18,869 nucleotides of DNA, from NCBI GenBank assembly GCA_004298605.1, contig SCPW01000037.1:1-18869 (forward strand). The letters are read 5' to 3'. The stretch comes from Gallionella sp. (lineage in GTDB: Bacteria > Pseudomonadota > Gammaproteobacteria > Burkholderiales > Gallionellaceae). Shown one piece after another: positions 1 to 18,869 of this stretch. The translations under genes and the position numbers were made by a program. The notes beneath the pieces were generated by a model, which saw nothing but the letters and a program-made list of their open reading frames with translations, searched no databases and was not told where the DNA came from. Every line of letters starts with the position of its first letter. The first letter of the stretch is position 1.

Positions 1-1
1 G

Positions 2-484
2 ATCGCGGTGCAGGGGCAGGACGGCAAGGAGGCCTACACGCGCAACGGCAGTTTTCAGGTCGCATCGAACGGCTTGCTGCAAACGCGCACCGGTTTGAAC
101 GTGATGGGCGATAGCGGCCCCATCACCGTCCCGCCGGACACCGAAGTGACTTTCGCCAAAGACGGCACGATTTCCACAGTCCCGAGCGGCTCGCAGCCTT
201 CGTCGGTGATTGCGGTCGGCAGGCTGAAACTGGTCAATCCGCCCCCCGGGCAACTGGAGCGCGGCGGCGACGGGTTGTTCCGCATGAAAGACGGCACGGT
301 CGCCGCAGCGGATGTAAACGTGGGAATCGCGCCCGGTAGCCTGGAGGGCAGCAATGTGAATACCGTGGAAGCGCTGGTGACCATGATTTCGCTGGCGCGC
401 AAATTCGACATGCAGATGAAAATGTTGCAGACCGCGGATAACAACGCGCGGCAGGCCAGCCAGATATTGAATATTTCGGGCTAG
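2..484 (+). CDS. flgF: FlgF, proximal rod protein (3' part only)
   Basis: This is the C-terminal 160 residues of a flagellar basal-body rod protein; the gene runs off the left edge and the first complete codon is at position 2. FlgF forms part of the proximal rod outside the cytoplasmic membrane. Visible features are the AYTRNGSFQ stretch of the FlgE/F/G central domain and the C-terminal helix around [24 protein letters not shown], the rod/hook C-terminal motif that packs as a coiled coil. FlgF rather than FlgG is chosen because a complete FlgG follows directly and the ending ASQILNISG differs from it. No start codon is present, so full length is unknown; the family is usually about 245-250 residues. 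Confidence 0.95.
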
Positions 485-527
485 ATGGGAAGTGGGAAGT
501 GCGGTTTTCCCACTCCCCGCTCCCCAA
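485..527. repeat. Inverted pair of GTGGGAA-type heptamer repeats
   Basis: The gap between flgF and flgG holds ATGGGAA-GTGGGAA heptamers on the top strand, followed by the same type of heptamer on the bottom strand (GGGGAGC, GGGGAGT). AGTGGGAA at 491-498 and TTCCCACT at 507-514 can form an 8-bp stem. The same repeat type recurs at 3548-3584 and 8923-8957. The flgG ribosome-binding site lies just after it. Confidence 0.7.
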
Positions 528-545
528 ATTGAAAGGATAAAAATC

Positions 546-1328
546 ATGATACGTTCCTTGTGGATTTCAAAAACCGGGCTGGATGCGCAGCAGACCCAGA
601 TGGACGTCATTTCCAATAATCTGGCCAACGTCAGCACCAGCGGTTTCAAGCGTTCGCGCGCGGTGTTCGAAGATCTGCTGTACCAGACCCTGCGCCAGCC
701 CGGCGCGCAGTCGTCGCAGCAGACCCAGATCCCGTCGGGCTTGCAGATCGGCACCGGGGTGCGCCCGGTGGCCGCCGAGCGGATTCATACCCAGGGCAAT
801 CTGCAACTGACCAGCAACCAGCTCGATGTGGCGATTCAGGGGGCGGGGTTTTTCCAGGTGCTGATGCCTGACGGCTCGACGTCCTATACCCGCGATGGGT
901 CGTTCCAGACCGATAGCCAGGGGCAGTTGGTGACATCCAGCGGCTTTCCCATCCAGCCCGCCATTACCATCCCGGCGGACGCGATCACCGTGTCGATCGG
1001 GCGCGACGGGGTGGTCAGCGTCACACAGCCCGGCGTAATTGCGCCGGTGCAGGTGGGCAGCCTGCAACTGGCGACTTTTATAAATCCGGCGGGCCTGCAA
1101 AGCCAGGGCGAAAATTTTTACCAGGAAACCGCTTCCTCCGGCACACCGAGCACCAATGTGCCGGGCACCAATGGCAGCGGCCTGTTGAATCAAAGCTATG
1201 TGGAAACCTCGAACGTGAATGTGGTGGAGGAACTGGTGAACATGATCCAGACGCAGCGCGCCTACGAGATCAATTCCAAAGCCATCCAGGCTTCGGACCA
1301 GATGTTGCAGCGCCTGTCGCAGATTTGA
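546..1328 (+). CDS. flgG: FlgG, distal rod protein
   Basis: FlgG builds the distal flagellar rod that passes through the P and L rings. The 260-residue product equals the usual family length. The N-terminus ([20 protein letters not shown], then [16 protein letters not shown]) is the rod-protein signature, and the C-terminal helix contains [19 protein letters not shown]. The ATG at 546 is chosen over an in-frame upstream start at 492 because GAAAGGA (531-537) sits 8 nt before it and the conserved N-terminus begins there. The upstream alternative would translate the repeat between flgF and flgG. The gene is the second of a continuous flg run. Confidence 0.98.
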
Positions 1329-1341
1329 TGGGGTGATGGCC

Positions 1342-2085
1342 ATGGCGCGCGCGGTTAAATTCTGGTTGCCCGGTTTTCTGGCCGTGCTGGCCGGCTGCGC
1401 CGGCAACCCGCCGACCAGCGTGCATCAGCCCATGACCGCCAAACCGGTCGAGAAAAAAACGGTTGTGCCGGTGGACGGGGCGATTTTTCATGCCGGAATC
1501 AACGAGCGGCCATTGTTCGAAGACAAACGCGCGCGCAATGTCGGCGATATCCTGACCATCAACATCGCGGAAAAAATGACCGGCAGCCGGAAATCCAGCG
1601 GCAGCTCCAGCTATTCGAACAGCATCGACGCAAAGATTCCGACCATGACCACGAACATACCGGACACGCTCGTCAGGGGCATACCGGTGGTCGGCGTGCC
1701 GGCCGCCAAACTGCTCAACAAGCTGTTCTCCTTGACGGGCTCCGCCGTGGGTGAAACCAGCAACGAAACGTCGAGCAAGGCTGCGGGAAGCGCGAGCGAA
1801 GACTTGACCGGAACAATCGCCGTCACGGTGATCGATGTGCTGCCGAACGGGAACCTCCTGGTCAGCGGCGAGAAGCAGGTGGCGTTGAACCAGAGCGACG
1901 AATTCATCCGCTTTTCCGGCGTGGTCAACCCGACCACGATCAGCAACCTGAACGCCGTGCAGTCCACCCAGGTTGCCGATGCGCATATCGAATACAAGAA
2001 TGCCGGTGCGATGAACGAGGTGATAAACGACGCGCGGTCACTGGGGTTCCTGGGGCGGTTCTTCCTGTCGGTGTTGCCGTTCTGA
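1342..2085 (+). CDS. flgH: FlgH, L-ring lipoprotein
   Basis: FlgH forms the outer-membrane L ring around the flagellar rod. The N-terminus is a lipoprotein signal: a short basic segment, a hydrophobic stretch and the lipobox LAGC, giving lipidated Cys19 from this start. The body carries the family pattern [20 protein letters not shown], and later [16 protein letters not shown] and [13 protein letters not shown] 1333, ATG 1336 and ATG 1342 are all in frame. ATG 1342 is preferred because GGGG at 1330-1333 is then 8 nt upstream. With it the product has 247 residues, a little longer than typical enteric FlgH. The gene lies 13 bp after flgG and 11 bp before flgI, in the same operon. Confidence 0.96.
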
Positions 2086-2096
2086 GGAGCAGGGCG

Positions 2097-3215
2097 ATGA
2101 GACGATTTTTTTCGATGAAACTGCGAGCCGCCCGGCTGTTGATGCTGGTGCTGGCGCTGGCGCCGTTCGCGGCATACGCCGACCGCATCAAGGACATGGC
2201 GAGCATCCAGGGGGTGCGCGATAACCAGTTGATCGGCTACGGCATCGTGGTCGGGCTCGACGGCAGCGGCGACCAGACCACGCAAACGCCGTTCACGGTG
2301 CAAAGCATCATCAGTATGCTGTCGCAGATGGGCGTGAACCTGCCGCAAGGCACCAGCCTGCAACTCAAGAATGTCGCGGCGGTGATGGTGACCGCCACGC
2401 TGCCGCCGTTTTCCAAGCCGGGGCAGACCATAGACGTGACCGCTTCTTCGATCGGCAACGCCAAGAGCCTGCGCGGCGGGACGTTGCTGATGACGCCGCT
2501 GAAGGGCGCGGACGGCCAAGTGTACGCGATGGCGCAGGGCAACGTGCTGGTCGGCGGGGTGGGCGCTTCCTCGGGCGGGGCTTCGGTGCAGGTGAATCAC
2601 TTGAGCGTTGGCCGCCTGCCCTCCGGCGCGACTGTGGAGCGCGCCGTGCCGACGCTGCTGGGGCAGGGCGAATTCATTCATCTGGAATTGAACGCGACGG
2701 ACTTCACCACCGCCGCGCGGATAGTCGAGGCCGTCAACGGGCAGGTCGCGCCTGGCCTGGCTTCGGCGCTGGACGGGCGGGTGATACAGGTGCGCGCGCC
2801 GGCAGGCGGCGAGCGCGTGGCGTTCATATCCAAAATCGAGAACCTGGAAGTCAATCCGGCGCAGGGAATCGCCAAGGTGATCGTCAATGCGCGCACCGGC
2901 TCGGTGGTGATGAACCAGGCGGTGACCTTGGATACATGCGCCGTGGCGCACGGCAACCTGACGGTGGTGATCGGCGTCGAGAGCTCGGTGAGCCAGCCCA
3001 ATCCGCTTTCCCGGGGGAAAACCGTGCAGACCGACAAAACCGCGATAGATATCAAGGCGGATCAGGGCGGCCTGGTGCAACTCCAGAAGGGCGCGTCGCT
3101 GAGCGAAGTGGTCAAGGCGTTGAATTCGATCGGCGCGACCCCGCAGGATTTGCTGGCGATTTTACAGGCGATGAAATCATCCGGCGCGCTGCGCGCCGAA
3201 CTGGAAATCATATGA
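2097..3215 (+). CDS. flgI: FlgI, P-ring protein
   Basis: FlgI is the periplasmic P-ring protein that works with the L ring as the rod bushing. The 372-residue product starts with a Sec signal peptide ending AAYA, followed by [33 protein letters not shown], the hallmark FlgI start. The C-terminus ([24 protein letters not shown]) is also typical. The ATG at 2097 has GAGGAG 8 nt upstream (2084-2089); an in-frame ATG at 2115 would also leave a signal peptide. The stop codon overlaps the flgJ start as ATGA (3212-3215), which suggests translational coupling. Confidence 0.98.
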
Positions 3216-4114
3216 TAGCCGACAGCGCGAATATTCCCGCAAAGCTGGCGCTCGATACGCGGGGGCTGGAGCAGTTGCGCGCCCAGGCCAAACAGTCGCC
3301 GGAACAGGCGCTCAAGGCGGCGGCGCAGCAGTTCGAGTCGATATTTCTCGACATGATGCTGAAAAGTATGCGCGAAGCCACCCCGCAAGACGGCATGTTC
3401 GATAACGAGCAGACCAGGATGTTCACCGGCATGCTGGACCAGCAACTGGCGCAGGGTCTGGCCAGCCGTGGCGTGGGCCTGGCCGACATCATGGTCAGAC
3501 AACTGGGCGGCAGTATGGGCAGTAGTATGGGCAGTAGTATGGGAAAAATGGAAAGTGGGAAACCGGGAGCGGTAAGTGGTGAGTTGCCCTCCCGGCGTCC
3601 AGCACTTAGCCCCCAAGCTTCAGTTAATGTTTTGCCGTCCGCGTATAACGGAACCGTCCAACAGAATTTTGTGAATCAAATGCTGCCGCACGCCATGCGG
3701 GCCAGCCAGGCAAGCGGTGTGCCGCCACAACTGATGCTGGGGCAGGCCGCACTGGAAAGCGGTTGGGGTAAGCGCGAAATCCGCATGGCCGACGGCAGCA
3801 ACAGCTATAACCTGTTCGGCATGAAGGCGGGCTCGGGCTGGAACGGCAAAGTGGCGGAAGCGATAACCACCGAATATAAAAATGGCGCGGCATACAAGCA
3901 GGTCGAAAAATTCCGCGCGTATTCGTCATATGCCGAGGCCTTTCAGGATTATGCACAGATGATCGGCAAAAATTCGCGCTACGCGGATGTGTTGCAGCGG
4001 GGCGGCGATGTGGCCGGCATGGCGCAGGCCATCCAGAAAGCGGGCTATGCGACCGACCCGAAATATGCCGGCAAGCTGGCGCGGGTGATGGAGATAACCG
4101 GCGGCCTGCTTTAG
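3212..4114 (+). CDS. flgJ: FlgJ, rod cap protein with muramidase domain
   Basis: FlgJ caps the growing rod and opens the peptidoglycan layer for it. The N-terminal rod-binding domain covers about residues 30-98 ([20 protein letters not shown], then [21 protein letters not shown]). The C-terminal glucosaminidase domain covers about 150-298, with the catalytic Glu182 in the ALESGWG motif. The product has 300 residues, near the family norm. The linker (about 99-140) is unusual: it has tandem MGSS units encoded by a 12-bp repeat, followed by sequence encoded by degenerate heptamer DNA repeats. The start ATG overlaps the flgI stop. The TAG stop lies exactly at the edge of a non-coding inverted-repeat element. 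Confidence 0.97.
3515..3543 (+). repeat. 12-bp tandem repeat inside flgJ
   Basis: ATGGGCAGTAGT occurs at 3515-3526 and 3527-3538, followed by a partial copy (ATGGG). It encodes [10 protein letters not shown] in the FlgJ interdomain linker. Because the unit is a multiple of three, copy-number change would lengthen or shorten the linker without shifting frame. Confidence 0.85.
3548..3584 (+). repeat. Degenerate heptamer repeat inside flgJ
   Basis: Five consecutive heptamers can be read: ATGGAAA, GTGGGAA, ACCGGGA, GCGGTAA, GTGGTGA, then GTT. They resemble the GTGGNNA heptamers at 485-527 and 8923-8957. Here they are translated as part of the FlgJ linker, between the cap and muramidase domains. 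Confidence 0.55.
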
Positions 4115-4272
4115 GAGCCGAGAAATAATAACTTGGACAATTATGGGTGTGCTGGCGGGATGCGCTGCAAGACGCCGGGCGTGCCGCATGGCCATTCCCT
4201 GCAAGCGACCGGCAACGCGGCAGCGCGCCCGCCAGCGCGGCCAGAATGTTCAAATTATTATTTCTCGGCTCC
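4114..4272. mobile_element. MITE-like inverted-repeat element at the flgJ stop codon
   Basis: A roughly 159-bp non-coding palindromic element lies between flgJ and flgK. Its arms match over 19 nt (4113-4131 with 4255-4273). They continue, after one mismatch and one G-T pair, through TTGGACA/TGTTCAA, and then imperfectly through the GC-rich interior (for example GCTGGCGGG repeated inverted). The whole piece can fold into one long hairpin. TTA occurs on both sides (4111-4113 and 4273-4275); if the border is moved one base, the flanking repeat is TTAG. Removing the element with one repeat copy restores CTTTAG, so the flgJ stop is kept. No transposase is encoded. It could equally be an unusually large structured terminator. 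Confidence 0.7.
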
Positions 4273-4304
4273 TTAGCCGGTTGGCAGCCCGTTTGCAGGT
4301 TTCT

Positions 4305-4331
4305 TAAAGAATTTGCCGGGCATGCCGATAA
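4305..4331 (+). promoter_or_regulatory. Sigma-28 (FliA) promoter for flgKL
   Basis: TAAAGAAT (4305-4312), an 11-nt spacer and GCCGATAA (4324-4331) match the enteric FliA consensus TAAAGTTT-N11-GCCGATAA closely, with a perfect -10 element. The flgK start is 39 nt further on. This fits late-class expression of the hook-filament junction genes separately from flgF-J. Confidence 0.88.
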
Positions 4332-4370
4332 TGTAAGCAGGCTCGTCACTGGGCGGGTAAAGGATGAATC

Positions 4371-6299
4371 ATGGGAAGCTCTAGTTTATTTACCTCGGCA
4401 TTGAGCGGCATGAATGCGGCGCAGCTTGGTCTGGCGACCACGCAGCACAATATCGCCAATGCCAGCACCCCCGCATTCACCCGGCAGGAGGTGCAGACCA
4501 GTTCGCGCGCGGGCCAGCAAACCGGCGCCGGGTTCATCGGGCAGGGAGTCGATATTTCGAGCGTAAAAAGAATTTACGATCAGTTCCTGACCACACAGGT
4601 GTTGCAGGAGCAGGCCCAGGCCAATTATCTGAGCGCCTACCACAGCGCGATGAAGCAGATCGACAATCTGGTCGCCGACCCGACCGCCGGCGCTTCACCG
4701 GCAATGCAGGATTTTTTCAGCGCGATGAACGGGGTCGCCAATAGCCCCGAATCGATTCCCGCCCGCCAGACCCTGCTGGGCAATGCGCAGTTCGTCGCAA
4801 ACCGTTTTCAGGCGATCAACCAGCGCCTGACCGATATAGCCGATGGGCTCAACGGCCAGGTCACCAGCAGTGTCAACTCGGTCAATACCTACGCGCAGCA
4901 GATCGCCACCCTGAACAGCAATATCAAACTCTCCATTGCCGCCGGACAGGGGCAGCAGCCCAACGATTTGATGGATCAGCGCGACCAGGTGATCAGCCAG
5001 TTGAACGAGGAAATCAAGGTCAGCGTACAGGTGCAGGCCGACGGCACGGCCACGGTATTCATCGGCAACGGCCAGGCATTGGTTATCAACGAGCAGGCCA
5101 TGGCGTTGCGCACCGTCCAGTCGGCAAGCGACCCGAGCAAGCTCGAGATCGGTTACAAGAGCGGGAGCGTTACGATTTCCATGCAACAAAGCAGTTTGCA
5201 GGGCGGCAACCTGGGCGCCTATCTCACCTTCCGCGACCAGAGCCTGGAGCCGGCGCGCAATGCGCTGGGGCGCGTGGCGATGGGGCTGGCGTCCAGCATC
5301 AACCAGCAGAACCAACTGGGGCAGGATCTGAAAGGCGCGCTGGGCGGCAATGTTTTCAATACCGCCACACCCTACGTTGTCGGGGATGCGGGCAACACCG
5401 GCACGGCAGTCATTTCGGCCGCCATTTCCAGCGTGTCGGCCCTGACGACCAGCGACTACCAGCTCCGGTTCGATGGGGCGAGCTACTCGATAGTGCGCCT
5501 GTCGGATAATAACGTGACCAACCTTGGCGCGGCGCTGCCGCAGACGGTGGATGGTTTTACCGTCAGCCTGACATCCGGCGCGGCGGCGGCGGGCGATTCC
5601 TTCCTGATCCGCCCTACCGCGAACGGTGCGCGCGACATCAGCGTGGCGATCAACGACCCCAACAAGATTGCCGCGGCCGCGCCGATGCGCACGGCGGCGA
5701 CACTGACCAACAGCGGAAGCGGCCTGATCAGCGCCGGGACGGTGAACTCGCCCCCTCCCCCGAATGCCAACCTCCAGAACAGCGTAACGGTCACATTCGT
5801 CGATGCGACCCACTACACCGTTGTCGACAACACCGCGTCGACAACGCTGGTGGGGCTGCCGGGCACGGTGTATAACCCGGCCGCGGGCGCGACCCTGTCT
5901 TTTAACGGCTGGACGGCGCAGATTACCGGGGCGCCGGTTGCCGGAGATACGTTCAGCATCGTAAAAAACACCAACGCGACCGGCGACAACCGCAATGCCT
6001 TGCTGATGGCGGGCCTGCAAACCCAGAACCTGATGGATAACGGCACGGCCAGCCTGCAGGGCGCATATGGCCAACTGGTCGGCGAGGTTGGCGCCAAAAC
6101 CCACGAGCTGGATGTGACCAGCCGGGCGCAATCCAATATGGTGGCCCAGACCGTCGCATCGCAGCAGGCCGTTTCCGGCGTGAACCTGGACGAAGAAGCG
6201 GCAAACCTGCTGCGCTACCAGCGCGCCTACCAGGCCGCCGCCAAGGCAATGCAAATCGCCGGCACCATGTTCGACGCCTTGATGGAAATAGGAGGGTAG
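4371..6299 (+). CDS. flgK: FlgK, hook-filament junction protein 1
   Basis: FlgK joins hook to filament and is exported by the flagellar type III system. The N-terminus (SLFTSALSGMNAAQLGLATTQHNIANASTPAFTRQEV) and C-terminus (VSGVNLDEEAANLLRYQRAYQAAAKAMQI) are the conserved coiled-coil ends. The usual NTPGYSRQ reads STPAFTRQ here. At 642 residues it is about 95 longer than E. coli FlgK. The excess appears to be two beta-rich insert domains, about residues 345-416 (ending GDSFLIRPT) and 444-533 (ending GDTFSIVKN). The second resembles an insert in FlgL. The ATG at 4371 has AAGG about 8 nt upstream, and the gene lies downstream of a sigma-28 promoter. Confidence 0.97.
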   Translation: MGSSSLFTSALSGMNAAQLGLATTQHNIANASTPAFTRQEVQTSSRAGQQTGAGFIGQGVDISSVKRIYDQFLTTQVLQEQAQANYLSAYHSAMKQIDNLVADPTAGASPAMQDFFSAMNGVANSPESIPARQTLLGNAQFVANRFQAINQRLTDIADGLNGQVTSSVNSVNTYAQQIATLNSNIKLSIAAGQGQQPNDLMDQRDQVISQLNEEIKVSVQVQADGTATVFIGNGQALVINEQAMALRTVQSASDPSKLEIGYKSGSVTISMQQSSLQGGNLGAYLTFRDQSLEPARNALGRVAMGLASSINQQNQLGQDLKGALGGNVFNTATPYVVGDAGNTGTAVISAAISSVSALTTSDYQLRFDGASYSIVRLSDNNVTNLGAALPQTVDGFTVSLTSGAAAAGDSFLIRPTANGARDISVAINDPNKIAAAAPMRTAATLTNSGSGLISAGTVNSPPPPNANLQNSVTVTFVDATHYTVVDNTASTTLVGLPGTVYNPAAGATLSFNGWTAQITGAPVAGDTFSIVKNTNATGDNRNALLMAGLQTQNLMDNGTASLQGAYGQLVGEVGAKTHELDVTSRAQSNMVAQTVASQQAVSGVNLDEEAANLLRYQRAYQAAAKAMQIAGTMFDALMEIGG

Positions 6300-6304
6300 A
6301 TGCC

Positions 6305-7519
6305 ATGCGTGTGAGCTCCAGCACTTTATTCGACAGCAGTGTCGCCGCGCTGAACCAGCAGCAGGCACGCATGATGCAAACACAGCAGCAGGTTTCCAGC
6401 GGGCGCAGGATTTTGACCGCGTCGGATGACCCTGTCGCCGCGGCAAGGGCTCTGGATATCAGCCAATCGGATGCGATGAACACCCAATACGCCTCAAACC
6501 GGGATGCGGCGCGGCATAACCTGTCGCTGGCCGAAACCGTACTGCAAAGTGTGACGGCTTTGATCCAGGACGTGAGCACGGTGGCGGTCAATGCGGGCAA
6601 TGGCGCGCTCAACGATGCCGACCGCCGCGCCATTGCGACAGAGTTGGGCGGCAGGTTACAGGAGCTGACAAGCCTGGCAAACAGCACCGACGGTGCGGGA
6701 AACTATCTGTTTGCCGGGTTCCAGTCCAGGACGCAGCCTTTTGTGGATACGCCCGCCGGGATGGGTTATTTCGGCGACGACGGCCAGCGCCTGGTGCAAG
6801 TCAGCGCATCGCGGCAAATGTCTGCCAGCAATTCCGGCGCGGATGTTTTCATGCGCGTGAAAAACGGCAACGGCACATTCATCACGCAGGCGACCGCCAC
6901 GAATACCGGCACCGGCATCGTCAGCGCGGGGTCGGTGGCTAACCCCGCGCTGCTGACGGGGAACAGCTACAGCGTGGCTTTCAGCGTGGCGGCCGGAGTG
7001 ACGACCTACAGCGTGACAAACACGACAACCTCCACGCTCCTCTCCGCCGGTAACCCCTATGTGAGCGGGCAATCCATCAGCTTCGACGGGATGCAGTTCG
7101 ACATTCAGGGCGCGCCCGCCAACGGCGACACGTTCACCGTGTTGCCCAGTTCCAACGAAAGCGTGTTCAAGACAGTTTCCGATTTGATCGCCGCATTGAA
7201 CACCCCCCTGGCAAGCAGCGCCGCAGGCGGCATGACGCGGTTGACCAACAGCCTGAACCGCGGCCTCAACAACATGGACAACGCGCTGAATAATATTCTC
7301 TCCAACCGGTCCACACTGGGCGTGCGCCTCAATGAAGTCGATGCGCTGCAGGCGACGGGTGACGATCTGGGTTTGCAATACAAGCAGAGTTTGTCGCAGT
7401 TGCAGGATGTCGATTACAACCAGGCATTGAGCGACCTGGTGCAGCAGCAAGCCAATTTGCAGGCCGCGCAGCAGACTTTTTCAAAGATTGCCGGCCTTTC
7501 CCTGTTCGATTACCTCTGA
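6305..7519 (+). CDS. flgL: FlgL, hook-filament junction protein 3
   Basis: FlgL is the second junction protein, between FlgK and flagellin. The flagellin-like N-terminus (MRVSSSTLFDSSVAALNQQQ, then QQQVSSGRRILTASDDPVAAARAL) and C-terminus (LSDLVQQQANLQAAQQTFSKIAGLSLFDYL) are diagnostic. Its 404 residues exceed the roughly 317 of E. coli FlgL. An insert at about 195-282 (GIVSAGSV to GDTFTVLPS) is homologous by eye to the second insert in FlgK. AGGAGGG (6290-6296), inside the end of flgK, is the ribosome-binding site, and only 5 bp separate the genes, so they are co-transcribed from the promoter before flgK. Confidence 0.97.
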   Translation: MRVSSSTLFDSSVAALNQQQARMMQTQQQVSSGRRILTASDDPVAAARALDISQSDAMNTQYASNRDAARHNLSLAETVLQSVTALIQDVSTVAVNAGNGALNDADRRAIATELGGRLQELTSLANSTDGAGNYLFAGFQSRTQPFVDTPAGMGYFGDDGQRLVQVSASRQMSASNSGADVFMRVKNGNGTFITQATATNTGTGIVSAGSVANPALLTGNSYSVAFSVAAGVTTYSVTNTTTSTLLSAGNPYVSGQSISFDGMQFDIQGAPANGDTFTVLPSSNESVFKTVSDLIAALNTPLASSAAGGMTRLTNSLNRGLNNMDNALNNILSNRSTLGVRLNEVDALQATGDDLGLQYKQSLSQLQDVDYNQALSDLVQQQANLQAAQQTFSKIAGLSLFDYL

Positions 7520-7699
7520 TTCCCACCGGCTTCTGTAGGGTGGGCGCTTTGGTGAACTGCGCCCACCATACGATTACTGATTTTTAGTCGATAACAAAGC
7601 GCGGAAAAGGGGCGCGATGGCTTTGCGGGAGAGGATTGAGGAGTGGTGGTAAATACCTGAGGTGTGATTAATGGTATTTCAAGAATTTCCACTCTCTAA
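7520..7699. other. Gap between flgL and the motB-side element
   Basis: No gene is supported here. It holds the hairpin at 7535-7571 and a weak inverted repeat AAATACC/GGTATTT (7651-7657 and 7673-7679). It also holds a short open stretch ending at 7650 that would read DNKARKRGAMALRERIEEWW. That stretch has no good start and may be the tail of a lost gene. Confidence 0.4.
7535..7571 (+). terminator. Hairpin after flgL (GTAGGGTGGGCGC type)
   Basis: GGTGGGCGC (7539-7547) pairs with GCGCCCACC (7559-7567) across an 11-nt loop, and GTA/TAC extend the stem outside one mismatch. It lies 15 bp after the flgL stop and probably ends flgKL transcription. No T tract follows, so it may instead be a dispersed intergenic repeat acting as a processing or stability element. 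Confidence 0.55.
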
Positions 7700-7888
7700 T
7701 CTTACTGTGTCACAAAGCGATCAAGGGATGCAGTGCAAGGCAAAATCGGGTGAAGTGGGTCAGGCAGGGATGGGCGATGCCATTGTCGCCCAACTCGCAA
7801 AAAGCGGAGTTTACATATAGTAAATGAGCATTTTGAGCCCGATTTTAACGCCGCAATGCGCCCTTCAGCGTTTTGTGACACAGTAAGA
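7700..7888. mobile_element. MITE-like element at the motB stop codon
   Basis: This is a 189-bp non-coding element. Its terminal inverted repeats match at 19 of 20 positions (7700-7719, TCTTACTGTGTCACAAAGCG, against 7869-7888), with weaker similarity continuing inward to AAAATCGGG. CTAA lies directly outside both ends (7696-7699 and 7889-7892), consistent with a 4-bp target duplication. A TA duplication with slightly shorter ends is also possible. Inside are small hairpins (GGGCGA/TCGCCC and TTTAC/GTAAA). The right CTAA supplies the motB stop (CTA = TAG on the minus strand), so insertion left motB intact. No transposase is present. Confidence 0.75.
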
Positions 7889-8869
7889 CTAAGGTGCTGC
7901 CGGAACGCCCGCAGGGGGAGAGCCGGACGCCGCCTCCACGTCCTGTTTGATGGGTTCAGCGGGTTCTCCGTTATCCGTTTCGGCATCCTCGCCAACCTTG
8001 CCGCCGTCATGCTGCGCCGCTTCTTCCGCTTTTTTATTCATGACGATCATGCTGATGCGCCGGTTGATGGGGCTTAACGGCTCCTCCTTTTTGTACAGCA
8101 CCGCAGAAGACAGGCCCACCACGCGGACGATTTTATCTTCCGCCATGCCGCCTGCGATCAATTCGCGGCGCGAGGCATTGGCCCGGTCGGCGGACAATTC
8201 CCAGTTGCTGTACCCCTTGCTGCCGCCGCTGTAAACGGCCGCGTCGGTATGCCCGGACAGGCTTATTTTGTTGGGCACTTCGTTCAGCGTCTTGCCGATT
8301 TCATGCAGGATTTCTTTGGTGTAGGGTTCAAGCTCGGCGCGACCGATCTGGAACATCGGGCGGTTTTGTTCATCGACGATCTGGATGCGCAGACCTTCGC
8401 TGGTGAGGTCGAGCAGTATCTGGTTTTTGAATTTATGCAGATTGGGGTTGTTTTCGATCACCTGCTCGATATTGGTTTTCAACTCTTTGATTTTTTCGCG
8501 CTCGATACGCAAAAATTCCTGCTGCGCGGCCTTGAGGTTGATGACTTTATCATCCGCGGGCAAATCGCCTTTCCTGACCTGCCCCGAGCTCCTGGTCAGA
8601 TCCTCCCCGCCACCTTTGATGACACTGGAACTGTCGCCGCTGCCGGAACCGCCCCTGAGCGCTACTTTGAGCGGTGTTTTGAAGTATTCCGATATGCCTT
8701 TCAAATCTCCCGATGTCGTCGATCCCAGCAGCCACATCAACAGGAAAAACGCCATCATCGCCGTGACGAAATCGGCGTAAGCGATCTTCCACGCGCCGCC
8801 GTGGGCGCCGCCCACCACCTTCTTGATGCGCTTTACGACAATGGGTTTTTTGTTGCTGTCTTCGGACAT
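7889..8869 (-). CDS. motB: MotB, flagellar stator with peptidoglycan-binding domain
   Basis: MotB forms the proton-conducting stator with MotA and anchors it to peptidoglycan. The single membrane helix (about residues 28-50) contains IAYADFVTAMMAFFLLMWLLG with the proton-accepting Asp33. The OmpA-like domain in the C-terminal half shows SLSGHTDAAVYSGG and NWELSADRANASRREL, ending INRRISMIVMNK. The start at 8869 gives MSEDSNKKPIVVKRIKK, the usual short cytoplasmic tail. An in-frame ATG at 8929 would add 20 residues lacking family character. The Shine-Dalgarno before 8869 is weak, so translation may be coupled to motA. The product has 326 residues. The stop lies at the border of a MITE-like element. 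Confidence 0.96.
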   Translation of the reverse strand: MSEDSNKKPIVVKRIKKVVGGAHGGAWKIAYADFVTAMMAFFLLMWLLGSTTSGDLKGISEYFKTPLKVALRGGSGSGDSSSVIKGGGEDLTRSSGQVRKGDLPADDKVINLKAAQQEFLRIEREKIKELKTNIEQVIENNPNLHKFKNQILLDLTSEGLRIQIVDEQNRPMFQIGRAELEPYTKEILHEIGKTLNEVPNKISLSGHTDAAVYSGGSKGYSNWELSADRANASRRELIAGGMAEDKIVRVVGLSSAVLYKKEEPLSPINRRISMIVMNKKAEEAAQHDGGKVGEDAETDNGEPAEPIKQDVEAASGSPPAGVPAAP

Positions 8870-8922
8870 GTTCAGGAAGCAGTGGATGGGGAACAAGCGG
8901 AAAACGCAGGATGGAAAACGAA

Positions 8923-8957
8923 ATCCCACTCACCACTCACCACTCCCCACTCCCCAC
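8923..8957 (-). repeat. Heptamer tandem repeat between motA and motB
   Basis: Read on the minus strand, this is GTGGGGA x2, GTGGTGA x2, then GTGGGAT: five heptamers in a row. It sits inside the 90-bp motA-motB gap, so it would be transcribed within the motAB message. The same family occurs at 485-527 and 3548-3584. Confidence 0.85.
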
Positions 8958-8959
8958 CT

Positions 8960-9814
8960 TTAGCGTTTTGTCTTGACATGTTCTTCCAGTTCGAGAAAAC
9001 CGGGGCGCTCGGTGGAATTGAGCACCTTGCGGCCAAATTCGACCGCCATCGCCGGCGCATAACCGTTAAGGTTGGCCAGCAGCGTTACCTTAATGGTCTG
9101 GAATATCTTGGTGCCTTCTTCGGCTTTTTGTTCCAGCAGCGTTGCCAGCGGGCCGACAAAACCATAGGCGAGCAAAATACCCAGGAAAGTGCCCACCAGC
9201 GCGTGGGCGATCAACATCCCCAGTTCGGCGGGCGGGATACCGACCGATTCCATGGTATGCACCACGCCCATCACCGCCGCGACGATACCGAACGCCGGCA
9301 TCCCGTCGCCCAGTTTGGCAATCACGTGGGAAGGCACCATCGCCTCGTGATGATGCGTTTCAATTTCCACATCCATCAGGTTTTCGATTTCCATGGCATT
9401 CAGGTTGCCGCTGACCATGATGCGCAAATAGTCGGTCATGAATTCGATCACGTGATGATCCGATGCAATTTTGGGGTACTTGGCGAAAATCGGGCTTTCC
9501 CCCGGCCTTTCCACGTCACCCTCGATGGACATCAAGCCTTCCTTGCGCACTTTGCCGAGCAATTCGTACAGCAAGGCCATCAGCTCCATGTATGTGTCCT
9601 TGCCGTATTTTGGCCCTTTCAGCACCGTCGGCAAATCTTTGAGTGTCGCCTTGATAACCTTGCCGGTATTGCCGACCAGGAACGCGCCGAGCGCGGCGCC
9701 GCCGATCATCAGCAGCTCGACCGGCTGGAACAATGCCGCCAAATGGCCGCCCGCCAGCACAAAACCGCCGAATACCGACAAACATACCGCCACATAACCG
9801 ATGATTACTAACAT
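8960..9814 (-). CDS. motA: MotA, flagellar stator proton channel subunit
   Basis: MotA is the multi-pass stator subunit that pushes on FliG. With the start at 9814 (MLVIIGYVAVCLSVFGGFVLAGG) the functional residues fall at the E. coli numbers: Arg90 and Glu98 in KVRKEGLMSIEGD for the FliG contact, and Pro173 and Pro222 next to the channel. The family stretch GDGMPAFGIVAAVMGVVHTM and the ending EFGRKVLNSTERPGFLELEEHV are clear. The product has 284 residues. The in-frame extension to 9862 is rejected because it breaks this register. A sigma-28 promoter lies about 220 bp upstream, and motB follows after 90 bp containing heptamer repeats. Confidence 0.97.
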   Translation of the reverse strand: MLVIIGYVAVCLSVFGGFVLAGGHLAALFQPVELLMIGGAALGAFLVGNTGKVIKATLKDLPTVLKGPKYGKDTYMELMALLYELLGKVRKEGLMSIEGDVERPGESPIFAKYPKIASDHHVIEFMTDYLRIMVSGNLNAMEIENLMDVEIETHHHEAMVPSHVIAKLGDGMPAFGIVAAVMGVVHTMESVGIPPAELGMLIAHALVGTFLGILLAYGFVGPLATLLEQKAEEGTKIFQTIKVTLLANLNGYAPAMAVEFGRKVLNSTERPGFLELEEHVKTKR

Positions 9815-10034
9815 GCCTATGCTTTCTGTTTTTCTAAGGAAGCCATATGGTTCCGGGGACAACCCGGCATCGCCCTCACGCGCTCCGCGTTGAGGCCGAC
9901 GAAGCGTTGCGGACGTATTCTAGAGCAAATCCGGGCTGCGGATAGTATTCAGGGAAACGCTTTGTTTATTTTAAGCTGCCCGCATCGGGCTTTCCGACAA
10001 GCTCGGGAGCCACTTGCCGGAACACGAACTGGCT
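9815..10034 (-). other. Long 5' leader of motAB
   Basis: About 210 nt separate the predicted sigma-28 start site from the motA start codon. I see no convincing small ORF or large structure, only short GC-rich self-complementary stretches and a weak AGAAAG ribosome-binding site near motA. Confidence 0.5.
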
Positions 10035-11776: not shown

Positions 11777-12862
11777 ATGCTGATCCAGCTTGCCGTCATG
11801 GGTATGCTGGCGGCGCTGTTGCCGCTGACCATCGTCTGGGTATCGAGCGACACCGACAAATACCGCAAGCTGGTATGGGTTACGCTATTCCTTACATTCG
11901 ACCTGATTATGTTCGGCGCATTCACGCGGCTGACCGACTCCGGCCTCGGCTGCCCGGATTGGCCCGGCTGTTATGGGCAGGCCAACCCATTTCAGGCACA
12001 TGCGGACATCCGCGCCGCCGAAACCGCGATGCCGACCGGCCCTGTGACGGTCATGAAGGCGTGGATCGAAATGATCCATCGCTACTTTGCCATGGGCATC
12101 GGCGTGCTGATCGTCGCGATGATGGTGATCGCGTGGCGCAGGTGGCTGAAATCGGGCCGCAGGGAAATGAAATTTTTGCCGGTGTTTCCGACAGTATTAT
12201 TTGGGTTTGTTTGCCTGCAAGGCGCCTTCGGTGCATGGACTGTCACCCTGAAATTGCAGCCGATTATCGTGACTATTCATCTGCTGCTGGGCATGGCATT
12301 GCTGGCGCTTCTGACATGGTTTGGCGCGCGCCAAAGCGACCATCCGCCTGTGCCGCAACTGGCTTCCGCGCTACGCGTACCGGCGGCGCTGGCCATTATG
12401 CTGCTGGCAATTCAAATCGCGCTCGGCGGTTGGGTCAGCAGCAATTATGCGGCGCTGGCTTGCACGGATTTCCCGTTGTGCCACGGCACGCTGTTACCGC
12501 AAATGGATTTTGCAAACGGTTTCACGCTATGGCGCGATTTGGGCATGACCGCCAAAGGCGAATATCTGCTTTTGCCGGCGTTGATCGCGATCCACTGGGC
12601 GCATCGCGCCTTTGCCTTTGCCGTGATTATATTTGTCGCCTGGATAGCGCTCAGGGCGCTCAAAATTGACGGTTTGCGCAAGACCGCGCGCTGGCTGCTG
12701 ATTATGATTGCGCTGCAATTCGCCACCGGCGCCCTGACCGTTTTCCTGAATTTTCCGCTGGCGCTGGCAGTGGCGCACAATGGCGGTGCGGCGATTCTCG
12801 TGCTGTTGCTGACCATGTTGAACTGCAAAATCCGAGCTGCGTCCAACGCCGCGCCCATATAG
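11777..12862 (+). CDS. ctaA: Heme A synthase (CtaA/COX15 family)
   Basis: This membrane enzyme oxidises the methyl group of heme O to the formyl of heme A, for aa3-type oxidases. The 361-residue product has two similar four-helix halves. Four heme-binding histidine positions are visible: His101 (EMIHRYFA, with Glu98), His168 (TIHLLLG), His273 with His276 (IHWAHRA) and His334 (VAHNGG). Each half also has an extracytoplasmic cysteine pair: Cys59/Cys65 in GLGCPDWPGCYG and Cys229/Cys235 in ACTDFPLCHG. The start at 11777 has GGGG about 7 nt upstream; ATG 11798 is an alternative. Unusually, no heme O synthase, SCO or oxidase structural genes of the aa3 type lie beside it in the window. Confidence 0.93.
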   Translation: MLIQLAVMGMLAALLPLTIVWVSSDTDKYRKLVWVTLFLTFDLIMFGAFTRLTDSGLGCPDWPGCYGQANPFQAHADIRAAETAMPTGPVTVMKAWIEMIHRYFAMGIGVLIVAMMVIAWRRWLKSGRREMKFLPVFPTVLFGFVCLQGAFGAWTVTLKLQPIIVTIHLLLGMALLALLTWFGARQSDHPPVPQLASALRVPAALAIMLLAIQIALGGWVSSNYAALACTDFPLCHGTLLPQMDFANGFTLWRDLGMTAKGEYLLLPALIAIHWAHRAFAFAVIIFVAWIALRALKIDGLRKTARWLLIMIALQFATGALTVFLNFPLALAVAHNGGAAILVLLLTMLNCKIRAASNAAPI

Positions 12863-14322: not shown

Positions 14323-14356
14323 TGCCCAGTTCCTCGGTCAACCTGTGGTACCGGCC

Positions 14357-14713
14357 ATGACAAAAAAGATTCTGCTACTGATCGCATCGCTTGCGCTCTT
14401 GTCTGGATGCGGCAAGAAAGAAGTTGCCGCCCCTGCCTCTGTACCCGGTGCAAAAACGTACAAAAGCACCTGCAGCATATGCCATAAATCCGGATTACAC
14501 GGGGCTCCCCGTTTTGGCAACAGGGAGGAATGGGCGCCACGCGCCGCCAACGGCAACGAAATTCTGTATGAGCGCGCGATAAAAGGGTACAAGGGCAACA
14601 AAGGCCTCATGCCCGCCCGCGGCTACAACCACAAGCTGACCGATGCCGAAATAAAAGAAGCGGTGGATTATATGGTCAAGTATTCCCTGCCAGCCTGGTC
14701 GGTAGAAAAGTGA
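14357..14713 (+). CDS. Monoheme lipoprotein cytochrome c (c5-like)
   Basis: This is a small membrane-tethered electron carrier of 118 residues. The signal sequence ends in the lipobox LLSGC (lipidated Cys18). One heme site is present, CSICH at 39-43, followed by KSGLHGAPRFG. Met85 in KGLMPARGY is the likely second axial ligand, the layout of c5/c555-type cytochromes. GTG 14345 would add four residues; neither start has a clear ribosome-binding site, so coupling to ubiT 34 bp upstream is possible. It faces the cytochrome b fusion gene and may serve the same respiratory chain, but no partner is shown. Confidence 0.88.
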   Translation: MTKKILLLIASLALLSGCGKKEVAAPASVPGAKTYKSTCSICHKSGLHGAPRFGNREEWAPRAANGNEILYERAIKGYKGNKGLMPARGYNHKLTDAEIKEAVDYMVKYSLPAWSVEK

Positions 14714-14747: not shown

Positions 14748-16307
14748 TCATTCCCGATCGACGACCCGCTTTGATGCATCTCCGCTCTCGGCCAGGCTGG
14801 AGCGGAATGACTCCAGCTCCAGGGACAACGCTTCAAAATCTGCGGAAGATGCCCAGAATTGTCTGATACGTTCACGCTCGGCGCGGCTGCGCAAGCGTGG
14901 CTCCCTCGTCGCAGCCAAACGTTGTTCTGTCCACAGCCCACCCATGCGGTGATAACAATCGTTCTCGCGGCAGCCCGTGATGAATACGCCATCAACATGA
15001 TGCTCGTGCAGCACATACTCAATGAAGGAAGGCGGCAGCATGGCGGTACAGGGCAGGCTCAATACGGCCACCCCTTTGCCGCGCAATTTCCCTATATCCG
15101 CCGCGTTATCGCAGCCGAAAACCATGACCCGCACATCGCCCTCAAGTTTTGCCACGCCATTCATCATTTCGGTGCGAAGCCCGGACATCGGCAAAGATGG
15201 CATTTCGATTCCGCTCACATACCCGGCATCGCTCCTGAAGGGGGTTGATGATGGGCATGCTCCGACGCAAATGCCGCAGCTTACGCAGCGGTCCGGCACG
15301 ACCACCGCCTCTTCCAGAAAGTGCATGCCATCGCTGCGCGGCCTCATCACCACGGCTTCATAGGGGCAATCGGCGACGCAGCGCGTGCATCCGCTACAAT
15401 CCTTGAGGCTTACTTCGGCAACCGGTATCTGTTTAAACCTGGTTGGCAGCCACGGCAGCGCGCCGATTACCAGGCTGAGCACAACTACCAGCGCCCATAC
15501 CTGCCCTGCCGACCCGATGTCCAGCAGCGGGTAAATAAACAGGTAAAACCAGTCTATCCCGATGTTGCGTGGTTCAATCCCCAGGTCTGCCTGACCCTGG
15601 CTCAGTGCCGGCACTGCCAATGCCAGAACCAGCAATGCCAGCAGCATCCCGAGAGCGAGCGCACGCTTGGGATTAACCACCGGGTAGCTGATGTGCAGGA
15701 TATGTATCCAGAGAAAGAACAGAACAAATAGCGGGAAGGTCGCATGAGCAAACGAGATCAGCGAAAAGAACCGGTCATTGAGCGCATCGTTTGAAACAAA
15801 GTTGCGCGACATCGGCTCATCGAATATCGGCAACCAGTCGAACCACTCCAGCGTAGCCACAGCGGAATATTGTGCCAGCGTGTCCCACACCATCCAGTAA
15901 CCGTTGATGCCGGAGGTTATTATCAGCCATATCAGCAGCACACCGGTAACCCAGGCAAACCAGCGCGCTCCGCGATAGCGCCCGAGGATGAATTCGCGCA
16001 ACAAATGCAGCAGCATCACCAGCACCAGCGCATCGGCAGCGTAGCGGTGCAGGCTGCGCATGATGCCGCCAAAATACCATTGCTCGTGGGTGAGATATTC
16101 TACCGAAGCGTAGGAGACTTCCTTGCCAGTTTCATAGAAGGCATAAGTGTATGCACCGCTAATAACCATGATCCAGAAGAAATAGAACCCCAGCGCGCCC
16201 AGATAATAAAAAGGGTTGAGGTCATTGCCGAAAATCTTGTTCAAGAGGCCTTCAAATCGAAGCAGCATCCTGCGCGCAAGGGAATCGGTGGAATTGGAAG
16301 TTGTCAA
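14748..16307 (-). CDS. Cytochrome b - ferredoxin - MvhD-like fusion protein
   Basis: This is a 519-residue modular membrane redox protein. Residues about 30-285 resemble cytochrome b6/bc1 b: His87 and His101 (HRYAADALVLVMLLH) and His188 and His202 are two heme pairs each 14 apart, and IDWFYLFIYPLL (251-262) recalls the PEWY region. Next come two [4Fe-4S] motifs, Cys304/307/310/314 and Cys341/344/347/351. The C-terminus (about 392-465) resembles the MvhD/FrhD hydrogenase iron-sulfur subunit, with Cys399, 420, 446 and 451 (FGCDNAAD, ITGCRENDCYH). It may pass electrons between quinone and a cytoplasmic iron-sulfur partner; this is inference. The start at 16307 is TTG; ATG 16268 is a possible start. 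No upstream partner gene is on its strand nearby. Confidence 0.88.
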   Translation of the reverse strand: MTTSNSTDSLARRMLLRFEGLLNKIFGNDLNPFYYLGALGFYFFWIMVISGAYTYAFYETGKEVSYASVEYLTHEQWYFGGIMRSLHRYAADALVLVMLLHLLREFILGRYRGARWFAWVTGVLLIWLIITSGINGYWMVWDTLAQYSAVATLEWFDWLPIFDEPMSRNFVSNDALNDRFFSLISFAHATFPLFVLFFLWIHILHISYPVVNPKRALALGMLLALLVLALAVPALSQGQADLGIEPRNIGIDWFYLFIYPLLDIGSAGQVWALVVVLSLVIGALPWLPTRFKQIPVAEVSLKDCSGCTRCVADCPYEAVVMRPRSDGMHFLEEAVVVPDRCVSCGICVGACPSSTPFRSDAGYVSGIEMPSLPMSGLRTEMMNGVAKLEGDVRVMVFGCDNAADIGKLRGKGVAVLSLPCTAMLPPSFIEYVLHEHHVDGVFITGCRENDCYHRMGGLWTEQRLAATREPRLRSRAERERIRQFWASSADFEALSLELESFRSSLAESGDASKRVVDRE

Positions 16308-16732: not shown

Positions 16733-18139
16733 TTACTTTGCCCGCAGCATGGCTTTGAAAACCACAACCAGGAACATTATCCCGCCAACAACGGCTATCA
16801 GCCCGCCCAAGCCCATCAATCCCATACCCGCGGTCTGCGCGAAGCCATGCAGCCCCTGTGCGGCTCCCGCGACCTTGCGCTGCACACCGTAGCCGCCCGA
16901 CCACAGCAATCCGACAATATGCAACAACTGCCCTGTGCCATATACGTAAGGCATCAGCGAAGCCCATTTCAGATCCGGTTCGCGATAGCCGAGGCGTGGC
17001 AGCAGGTGCAAGGTCAGCCCCATGAATGCCAGGCTGATTGCGCCTCCGGTTCCATGATAGTGCGCAGTAATGATCGTGTTGCTGTCACCGATCATCAGGC
17101 TTATTCCGCCACCAAGGGCGAACAGGAGGATTGACGAAATCAGTGCCGCGCGCCGGGGCTTGGTTGCCGGTATGCGCTCGCCAGCCATGAGCCCATAGAG
17201 AACCGCCAAGCCGAGCGGCACAGGCGAAAATGCGCCTCCAACCTTCATCAACTGGGTAAACTGATCCACATAATCACCCGTCGAACCGACAAAGGACAGG
17301 TAAATGACCGGGACGAACAATACCGGCAGCACACCCAACAGCAGGAAAAACGATGCCACCCGTGGGGTCAGCGGGTTTTTGGCGCCGCAGGCGCCGCCCA
17401 GCCACAACCAGCCCGCCAGCATCAACAGCATGTAGGTGAATTGCAGCACATGTCCACCGCCCCAAAATAGCAGATCATAGTATTGGGTGCTTTCGAAAAC
17501 GTCCGGAATAATCACATAAGACCATCCGAAAGCGATCAGTGCAAATACGGTAGAAATGGAAGCACCATAAAACCCCAAGCGTATCGAACCTTCTCCACCC
17601 TTCCACGAATCGGTCGATGGCACCGTTATCAGGCTGCGCAGCACCAACACGGCTACGCCAACCGCAAAGATAATCAGCCCGGAAAAAAAGAAGGTGCTTT
17701 GTATTACCGGCACATAATTGCTCATCAGCGGCTTGCCGGCATTAACAAAAGGAGACAGCACGATCATGGCTGCTCCAACTGCGGCCAGCACCAGGGACAG
17801 CCAGCCAATGCCGATGAACCTGGATGTCGAGTTCAGGCTCCACAACACGCCGGCGAATGCCATGAACCACAGCAGCACCGACAGATCCACATGCACCACA
17901 AGCGCGGTATGGAAAAAATCTACCCAAGGAAAAATGTCTTGAACATAGGGGGTGCGCGCCAGCACCAATAAAATGGCGAACATGCCGGCTCCTACCAGCG
18001 ACGCAATACCTAGCCACAACCAGCCGGAAGCCAGTTTACGGCTGGCATCCGATGGCATGGAAAATGTAAATCCGTGTGCCCTTTCGCCGGTGGCGTCCAT
18101 ACTTTCTTTGATGCCCGTTTGCTGATATGTCGAATCCAT
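16733..18139 (-). CDS. Heme-copper oxidase subunit I-like protein lacking CuB ligands
   Basis: A 468-residue protein with about 12 hydrophobic segments and the layout of heme-copper oxidase subunit I. His83 (VVHVDLSVLLWF) fits the helix II low-spin heme ligand. His360 and His362 (ITAHYHGTGG) fit helix X, the high-spin and low-spin heme ligands. His230 (WGGGHVLQFTYML) fits the helix VI CuB ligand. The tandem His of helix VII, expected about 50 residues after His230, is Tyr280-Leu281, and no other HH exists. It may therefore bind hemes but not CuB, so oxidase or NO reductase activity is doubtful. AGGGTAG precedes the ATG at 18139. The gene lies 9 bp after the 172-residue protein gene. The exact subfamily is not assigned. 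Confidence 0.82.
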   Translation of the reverse strand: MDSTYQQTGIKESMDATGERAHGFTFSMPSDASRKLASGWLWLGIASLVGAGMFAILLVLARTPYVQDIFPWVDFFHTALVVHVDLSVLLWFMAFAGVLWSLNSTSRFIGIGWLSLVLAAVGAAMIVLSPFVNAGKPLMSNYVPVIQSTFFFSGLIIFAVGVAVLVLRSLITVPSTDSWKGGEGSIRLGFYGASISTVFALIAFGWSYVIIPDVFESTQYYDLLFWGGGHVLQFTYMLLMLAGWLWLGGACGAKNPLTPRVASFFLLLGVLPVLFVPVIYLSFVGSTGDYVDQFTQLMKVGGAFSPVPLGLAVLYGLMAGERIPATKPRRAALISSILLFALGGGISLMIGDSNTIITAHYHGTGGAISLAFMGLTLHLLPRLGYREPDLKWASLMPYVYGTGQLLHIVGLLWSGGYGVQRKVAGAAQGLHGFAQTAGMGLMGLGGLIAVVGGIMFLVVVFKAMLRAK

Positions 18140-18148
18140 TCGCTACCC

Positions 18149-18667
18149 TTAAATTGCATTCTTGTTCTTGAAAATAAATCCGCCGGTCGCAGCTTTGAAA
18201 TCAATCACCATGATGCGTCCCGGCGCGAGATTGACCGTCTCCTCTCGCATATAGTTGAAATCATCCCCATCACGATCCTTCAGGCGCGCCTTCAGAGTAT
18301 GGGTGCCCGCCTTCACCTGAATGCGCCGGTAAATACTGGAATTACTGCTGTGCGCCAACCCTGCTGGCCGCAACACTTCATGATAGAGCTGTTTCCCATC
18401 CATTTCCAACTCGACTACCACGTCAACCCGCTCGCGCGGGCACACTGTAGTCACTTTGCGCTGTAGCGGCGGCAATTTGGCAAGCTCTTCCGGAGTGCGT
18501 TCGCGGCATGCCCCTTTGTGCTGGCCCGCATGGCTGAAGCTCAGCTTAATCAACGTTTCGTCAGGCGGCAAGTGAGTGTATGCCGGAAAGGTGGAAAAAT
18601 AGCCGATCACTCCCATAAACAGGGCATAAAACAATCCCTGGCCGATATATTGCGATGGTTTAGCCAT
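18149..18667 (-). CDS. Membrane-anchored periplasmic protein, function unknown
   Basis: A 172-residue protein with one N-terminal membrane helix (about 10-28) and a predicted beta-rich periplasmic domain. Visible possible ligands are His46, His50, Cys54 and Cys76 (SFSHAGQHKGACRE, then VTTVCPRERV), which could bind metal or form a disulfide. The middle (VVVELEMDGKQLYHEVLRPAG) looks like strands. The start at 18667 has GGGAG about 7 nt upstream and overlaps the stop of the preceding reductase-like gene by 8 bp (ATGGCTAA). The oxidase-like gene follows after 9 bp. I do not recognise the family. By position it could take the place of an oxidase subunit II or assembly factor; that is inference. 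Confidence 0.8.
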   Translation of the reverse strand: MAKPSQYIGQGLFYALFMGVIGYFSTFPAYTHLPPDETLIKLSFSHAGQHKGACRERTPEELAKLPPLQRKVTTVCPRERVDVVVELEMDGKQLYHEVLRPAGLAHSSNSSIYRRIQVKAGTHTLKARLKDRDGDDFNYMREETVNLAPGRIMVIDFKAATGGFIFKNKNAI

Positions 18668-18869
18668 GTGTCGCTCCCTCGGATGATACTGACGCTTCCG
18701 CAACCTGAGCCTTGTGGGGGTTCAGCAGAAATGCATCAGAAAAATACTGGTCTTCCGGCAATCCCTTGGCCATGAATGGCGCGCGACCCGCCTCAATCAT
18801 CAAAGGCGAACCGCAGGCATAAATCTGGCAACCGGCCAGATCAGGATAATCCTGCAAGATGGCCTCATG
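18660..18869 (-). CDS. Ferredoxin reductase-like flavoprotein (3' end only)
   Basis: Only the last 69 residues are in the window; the gene enters from the right edge, and the apparent start at 18857 is just an internal TTG. The segment HEAILQDYPDLAGCQIYACGSPLMIEAGRAPFMAKGLPEDQYFSDAF resembles the C-terminal NAD(P)-binding end of ferredoxin-NADP reductase family proteins of the CDP-6-deoxy-glucoseen reductase (AscD) type, where the CGxPxM motif contacts the nucleotide. If complete, it would pass electrons from NAD(P)H to an iron-sulfur or heme acceptor. It overlaps the 172-residue protein gene by 8 bp, so the two are co-translated, with the oxidase-like gene downstream. Confidence 0.8.
   Translation of the reverse strand, partial: HEAILQDYPDLAGCQIYACGSPLMIEAGRAPFMAKGLPEDQYFSDAFLLNPHKAQVAEASVSSEGATHG

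Follow-up and report, generated by a model that had tools for sequence, protein, structure and literature searches.

The window analyzed here is the whole stretch of 18,869 nucleotides of contig SCPW01000037.1 from Gallionella sp., and it contains near its end a gene for a protein similar to subunit I of haem-copper oxidases (HCO), in which the CuB histidine pair is missing (hereafter the focal gene and protein). The relevant genes and codons, with residues located by MAFFT alignment, are:

11777 to 12862, forward strand: haem A synthase of the CtaA/COX15 family (Pfam, E 1.4e-79).
14748 to 16307, reverse strand: fusion of cytochrome b, 4Fe-4S and FlpD (Pfam), downstream of the focal gene in the same cluster, with the same order in Gallionella relatives.
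16733 to 18139, reverse strand: focal gene (from the open reading frame list), coding for a CuB-less HCO subunit-I-like protein of 468 amino acids.
16874 to 16879, reverse strand: codons of Arg421-Lys422, where other HCOs have Arg-Arg.
17054 to 17062, reverse strand: codons of His360-Tyr361-His362 in helix X (positions of the high-spin and low-spin haem ligands), which stand opposite the HFH of the eNOR, ba3-like and A-type rows.
17300 to 17305, reverse strand: codons of Ile279-Tyr280, where the lost His-His pair of CuB most likely stood (hhalign and MAFFT; some alignments disagree).
17441 to 17443, reverse strand: codon of Gln233 (three residues after the helix VI histidine, His+3; the same residue is found in eNOR).
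17450 to 17452, reverse strand: codon of His230 in helix VI, the only CuB-ligand position that survives.
17891 to 17893, reverse strand: codon of His83 in helix II (low-spin haem ligand position).
18149 to 18703, reverse strand: small protein with an N-terminal helix and beta strands, adjoining the focal gene; translation may begin at the ATG at 18667.
18663 to 18869, reverse strand: C-terminal end of a cytochrome b/Fer2/FAD/NAD fusion, cut by the contig end (domains as in the full-length relative at L001:3520-5460).

Much of positions 1 to 10000 looks flagellar (rod, P-ring, hook-associated and stator proteins), as judged from translations only, and a small c-type cytochrome (14345 to 14713) is convergent with the cytochrome b/4Fe-4S/FlpD gene. 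The small protein has no Pfam match; its structure model reached a pLDDT of 90.8, and Cys54 and Cys76 were invariant in 50 rows. In related loci the usual order is CuA-II, eNOR-I, CtaB, SCO, a single or double set of cytochrome b fused to 4Fe-4S/FlpD or to Fer2/FAD/NAD, then the small gene and the focal gene, and in Gallionella a further cytochrome b/4Fe-4S/FlpD fusion follows the focal gene. SCO, CtaB and eNOR, expected past position 18869, were not present on the contig of the window. The contig ends inside a cytochrome b fusion, which can explain why eNOR was not found in this incomplete genome.

Relatives of the focal protein were collected by scanning named genomes (63 loci, by title from Gallionella/Ferrigenium and other Betaproteobacteria, Gammaproteobacteria, Nitrospirae, Ideonella and Rhodoferax), to which were added the loci of the 25 out of 300 order-level genomes with a focal match. 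Removal of 22 duplicate or partial loci left a family of 88 members. Pfam, the structure model and comparison with the PDB agreed on the 12-helix COX1 fold for the focal protein, which has histidines at positions 22, 77, 83, 230, 360, 362, 378, 407 and 431. In all three MAFFT alignments His83, His230, His360 and His362 fell on the ligand positions of helices II, VI and X of eNOR, ba3-like and A-type rows, and Arg421-Lys422 on the Arg-Arg position; we take these histidine positions to be those of the haem and CuB ligands from known HCO structures. All of these histidines were invariant in the 88 members, as were, among others, Gln233, Met298, Tyr361, Arg421 and Lys422. The positions of the low-spin histidine pair (helices II and X) and of the high-spin histidine (helix X) expected of an HCO subunit I are kept throughout the family, and of the three CuB/FeB histidines His230 alone remains in the focal protein. 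These results bear out the initial annotation as to the spacing of the haem ligands, the assignment of His230 to helix VI and the absence of an HH anywhere in the protein. Inspection of the sequence revealed no histidine at all between 230 and 360, so no ligand can come from helix VII or from the loop that follows, under any alignment, and a misalignment cannot hide the lost pair. His77 and His378, which had been named as residues that might stand at the CuB site, do not rescue it: both positions vary across the family, and the model puts them in helices II and X. At His+4 the focal protein has Phe234, which is neither the His-linked Tyr that A- and B-type oxygen reductases carry along with their CuB histidine set, nor the Gln of eNOR, nor the Asn of sNOR, and Phe occupied this position in 86 of the 87 tabulated members. 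The comparison supports the view that this is an HCO-fold protein with the haem-ligand positions kept and the CuB/FeB pair gone, and thus neither a canonical oxidase nor a canonical NO reductase.

The lost pair was placed at Ile279-Tyr280 by all 14 hhalign settings (seven against eNOR and seven against eNOR, ba3-like and A-type rows together) and by two of the three MAFFT alignments, the third leaving a gap and Pro272 opposite the pair. The initial annotation had chosen Tyr280-Leu281. This register was recovered in four of seven hhalign settings against ba3-like profiles and five of seven against A-type ones (a weak match). Alignments to single-sequence HMMs were scattered: 7 of 18 eNOR rows gave 279-280, the other 11 an insertion or 271-272, and three ba3-like rows 275-277. 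In the structure model helix VII ends at 283 and helix VIII starts at 287, and comparison of these limits with those of bovine oxidase favours 279-281. Ile279-Tyr280 is most likely the former site of the pair, although the exact site is less sure than the loss itself.

A shallow profile of 44 rows set the HH of eNOR at Asp289-Tyr290, with two gaps within helix VII, and bears on a different reading: that the pair survives, shifted to 289-291, in some relatives with a working CuB/FeB site, and that the window protein has lost it. Consistent with this, seven eNOR-context loci have an HH at 290-291 (L074, L075, L076, L078, L084, L085 and L089), L046 has an HH at 289-290 within SAHHIL, the same letters as in eNOR, and His290 occurs in 35 of 72 eNOR-context and all seven aa3-context members. 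However, the shallow alignment depends on a shift by ten residues that is immediately reversed, the deeper profiles gave 279-280 in 14 of 14 settings, the model places residue 290 in helix VIII just past its start, and the number of residues from His230 to helix VIII is near that of the bovine enzyme, which points to 279-281 for the pair. With Asp-Tyr-Val at 289-291 in the window protein itself, we regard a shifted working site as very unlikely.

The relatives share the loss of the canonical pair, a check that had been proposed from the window alone. Position 279 was never His in the 88 members, and position 280 was His in only four (L081, L096, L097 and L098). By context, which was tabulated for 87 members (72 in eNOR context, seven in aa3 context and eight of a CcsA clade; L038 has no context), Tyr280 occurred in 69 of 72, 7 of 7 and 1 of 8 members, respectively, and the CcsA clade had His there in three of eight. 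The pair may have been lost stepwise, from HH to xH and then to xY. His407 was kept in all 79 eNOR- and aa3-context members and in none of the eight of the CcsA clade. Between the window gene and five relatives of the Gallionella group dN/dS was 0.10-0.15, and the focal gene is under purifying selection. Two loci titled Gammaproteobacteria and Polaromonas (L027 and L028) code for proteins 81-82% identical to the window protein in a shared gene order, reflecting either transfer or mis-binning.

This pattern of conservation bears on two further explanations. In one of them, His230 and Tyr280, together with a further residue that could be Gln233, would form a new kind of site for the second metal. 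His230 and Gln233 are invariant and Tyr280 is common, but some members have Gln, Thr, Leu, Pro or His in place of Tyr280, and Gln233 is also found in eNOR, which has the full histidine set; we give such a site little credence. In the other, the high-spin haem, freed of CuB, would bind NO or O2 beside His230 and Tyr280, and the protein would act as a sensor, a store or a haem-only catalyst protecting respiration exposed to NO. The invariance of His230 and of the proximal His360, the prevalence of Tyr280 in eNOR and aa3 contexts and the presence of an NO reductase as neighbour agree with gas binding. Against it, Pfam found no output domain in the focal protein and Tyr280 is nearly absent from the CcsA clade, which makes this role improbable in our view. 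NnrS is a membrane haem protein of NO-exposed bacteria; NnrS (PF05940) was not among the Pfam matches of the focal protein up to E 0.01, and hhalign gave no match to one NnrS sequence.

The relationship to known enzymes was examined with an IQ-TREE tree of 68 rows, in which ba3-like, A-type, one C-type and two cNOR-type rows served as outgroup and from which four rows of a first tree, including sNOR (a long branch), had been dropped. The focal family formed one group (100/100) with a stem branch of 2.79 changes per column, eNOR formed another (100/98), and both were joined (99/96) apart from the outgroup rows. Table A4 of PMC8756737 gives Gln at the active-site Tyr position as diagnostic of eNOR and Asn as diagnostic of sNOR. 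The neighbouring COX1 gene codes for eNOR by this token, with Gln at that position in 20 of 20 rows, in which the Gln at His+3 was invariant too. Subunit I of eNOR, a Gln-type NO reductase on the B-family side of HCOs, is the nearest relative both by profile (hhalign global E 2.3e-42) and by tree, and shares with the focal protein the histidines of helices II, VI and X, the GHxxQ motif and a common operon; the focal protein differs in being about 100 residues shorter and in having neither the HH pair nor the diagnostic Gln at His+4. The ba3-type (B-family) oxygen reductases, which have three CuB histidines and a His-linked Tyr, share the fold and the haem ligand positions and gave the highest identity in the PDB (18%), but the ba3-like rows have the HH and the Tyr at His+4 that the focal protein does not, and they lie outside the clade of eNOR and the focal family. 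As for sNOR (NorY of ammonia oxidisers), it also belongs to the COX1 family and has a SCO/SenC neighbour; a NorY-like sequence from an ammonia oxidiser (L178), of a different family, has HH and Asn at His+4, unlike the focal protein, and hhalign of the focal family against this single sequence gave no significant match. Judged from alignments and tree, the focal family is a conserved set of paralogues of HCO subunit I with eNOR as its sister group. It has lost the active-site Gln/Tyr along with two of the three ligands of CuB/FeB, and has kept the ligand positions of both haems. On Thermus plasmid pTF19b, an eNOR-like subunit I (L101:7983-9665) lies about 3.6 kb from nirS and has Lys (GHFKG) for the second helix-X His, the expected low-spin haem ligand.

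Neighbours were surveyed at 110 loci, which differed in length and in part lay at contig ends. They comprised 74 loci of eNOR type (eNOR itself in 57), 19 of CtaA/CtaB/aa3 type, 10 of CcsA type and seven without any of the neighbours sought except for one cytochrome b. All 74 loci of eNOR type, for which eNOR or the small gene was the defining feature, contained the small gene, and in 70 of them it adjoined the focal gene; it is tied to the cytochrome b fusion genes. One locus (L091) is of eNOR type by its stretch, yet its protein grouped with aa3-context members in the first tree. A divergent focal clade (L055, L057, L058, L063, L096-L099 and L219) lies beside CcsA of cytochrome c maturation, and in some genomes such a copy occurs on top of an eNOR-linked one; genomes G011, G132 and G170 each have both.

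These settings bear on the proposal that the focal protein works in biogenesis, as a copy of subunit I that is loaded with haem but catalytically dead. It would pick up haem O/A from CtaB/CtaA and deliver it to the catalytic subunit, or serve as an assembly scaffold, in eNOR, aa3 and CcsA-clade cytochrome c settings. Haem handling and assembly are the theme common to all of them: CtaA or CtaB adjoins the focal gene in 17 of 19 CtaA/CtaB/aa3-class loci (not in L036 and L216) and CcsA in 9 of 10 CcsA-class loci, and CtaB and SCO occur in 53 and 65 of the 74 eNOR-type loci, although the classes were defined by those very neighbours. On the other hand, the usual neighbour of the focal gene in the eNOR operon is the small gene and not CtaB, and only the 25 order-level genomes had a focal match; 13 of the matchless ones have an A-type subunit I, so the focal protein is not a general assembly factor. 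We consider a biogenesis role possible, though rather unlikely.

Co-occurrence was determined in samples of the order (n=300), genus (n=61) and phylum (n=299), all including the window genome (G000), with four or five candidates scored per genome in the large samples. At E < 1e-100 for the focal protein, and leaving out a weak focal match (G103) and a weak eNOR match (G081), the order sample contained 22 genomes with eNOR, 24 with the focal gene and 22 with both; the focal gene occurred without eNOR in G000, with its cut contig, and in G145, of the CcsA clade. Corresponding figures were 21, 25 and 21 in the genus, and 28, 57 and 27 in the phylum (E limits 1e-60 and 1e-40), where eNOR was alone in G525 (69% complete) and the focal gene alone in 30 of its 57 carriers, G000 included. 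Carriers of eNOR thus also had the focal gene in 22 of 22, 21 of 21 and 27 of 28 cases. Among 14 genomes behind chosen named loci, eNOR above the focal protein's own score level was not found in nine (L031, L032, L036, L051-L055 and L063), and L057 and L058 had it. According to PMC10734462, eNOR is present in four out of six Gallionellaceae genomes that carry narGH, Ferrigenium KS MAGs being part of this set; the Ferrigenium genomes of L004, L006 and L013 contained both eNOR and the focal gene. CtaA exceeded the cut-off in 26 of 61 genus genomes (three weaker matches excluded), namely in 24 of the 25 focal carriers vs two of the 36 others, which also suits a biogenesis role. The focal gene is in near-obligate company with eNOR carriers and, in the genus, with haem A synthase. 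No COX1 match above 400 bits was found in the seven genus focal carriers examined, and motif-checked A-type matches scored at least 506. Haem A synthase tracking the focal gene set in this way points to haem A use, and in the genus the users of haem A are most likely eNOR, the focal protein or both.

The company of a true NO reductase and of haem-A-making genes suggests a helper and not a terminal enzyme. Our leading interpretation, to which we give close to an even chance, is that the focal protein assists the eNOR (or aa3) module in a redox or structural capacity. It would bind two haems, one of which may be haem A or O, and the high-spin haem, having no CuB next to it, would be capped by His230 (bis-His) or left accessible to gases. 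No O2 or NO would be reduced by the canonical binuclear route, and the protein would either stabilise the reductase or pass electrons between it and the cytochrome b/Fe-S proteins of the operon. The partnership with eNOR favours a subunit or dedicated partner, and the CtaA/CtaB/CcsA settings a wider role in haem/HCO biogenesis; since the family also occurs beside CtaA/CtaB (often near aa3 genes) or CcsA without eNOR, it cannot be an eNOR subunit only. Other results argue against the accessory role: the 30 phylum-sample carriers without eNOR, the seven of 110 loci with none of the sought neighbours except one cytochrome b, and a Defluviimonas plasmid (L100:8388-14927) whose eNOR cluster ends with the small gene and then a hemerythrin-family gene, no focal gene being present in the stretch fetched. 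Furthermore, co-occurrence of the two genes can reflect joint transfer of one cluster. In a bolder form of the accessory interpretation, which we consider rather unlikely, eNOR of Beta- and Gammaproteobacteria would be a two-COX1 machine, in which a catalytic subunit works with an obligate, CuB-less, haem-A-dependent pseudo-subunit relaying electrons (or protons), a principle reused with aa3 and in cytochrome c maturation.

If this last reading were true, eNOR would be, to our knowledge, the first HCO needing a second, non-catalytic subunit I. Were the focal protein a required partner, purifying eNOR from its carriers without it would yield an incomplete enzyme, and marker-gene surveys could miscount by scoring COX1-family matches as oxidases or NO reductases. 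The family would also provide a natural single-metal control for the influence of CuB/FeB on haem chemistry. A superfamily defined by its binuclear centre has a widespread, well-conserved branch without a canonical one.
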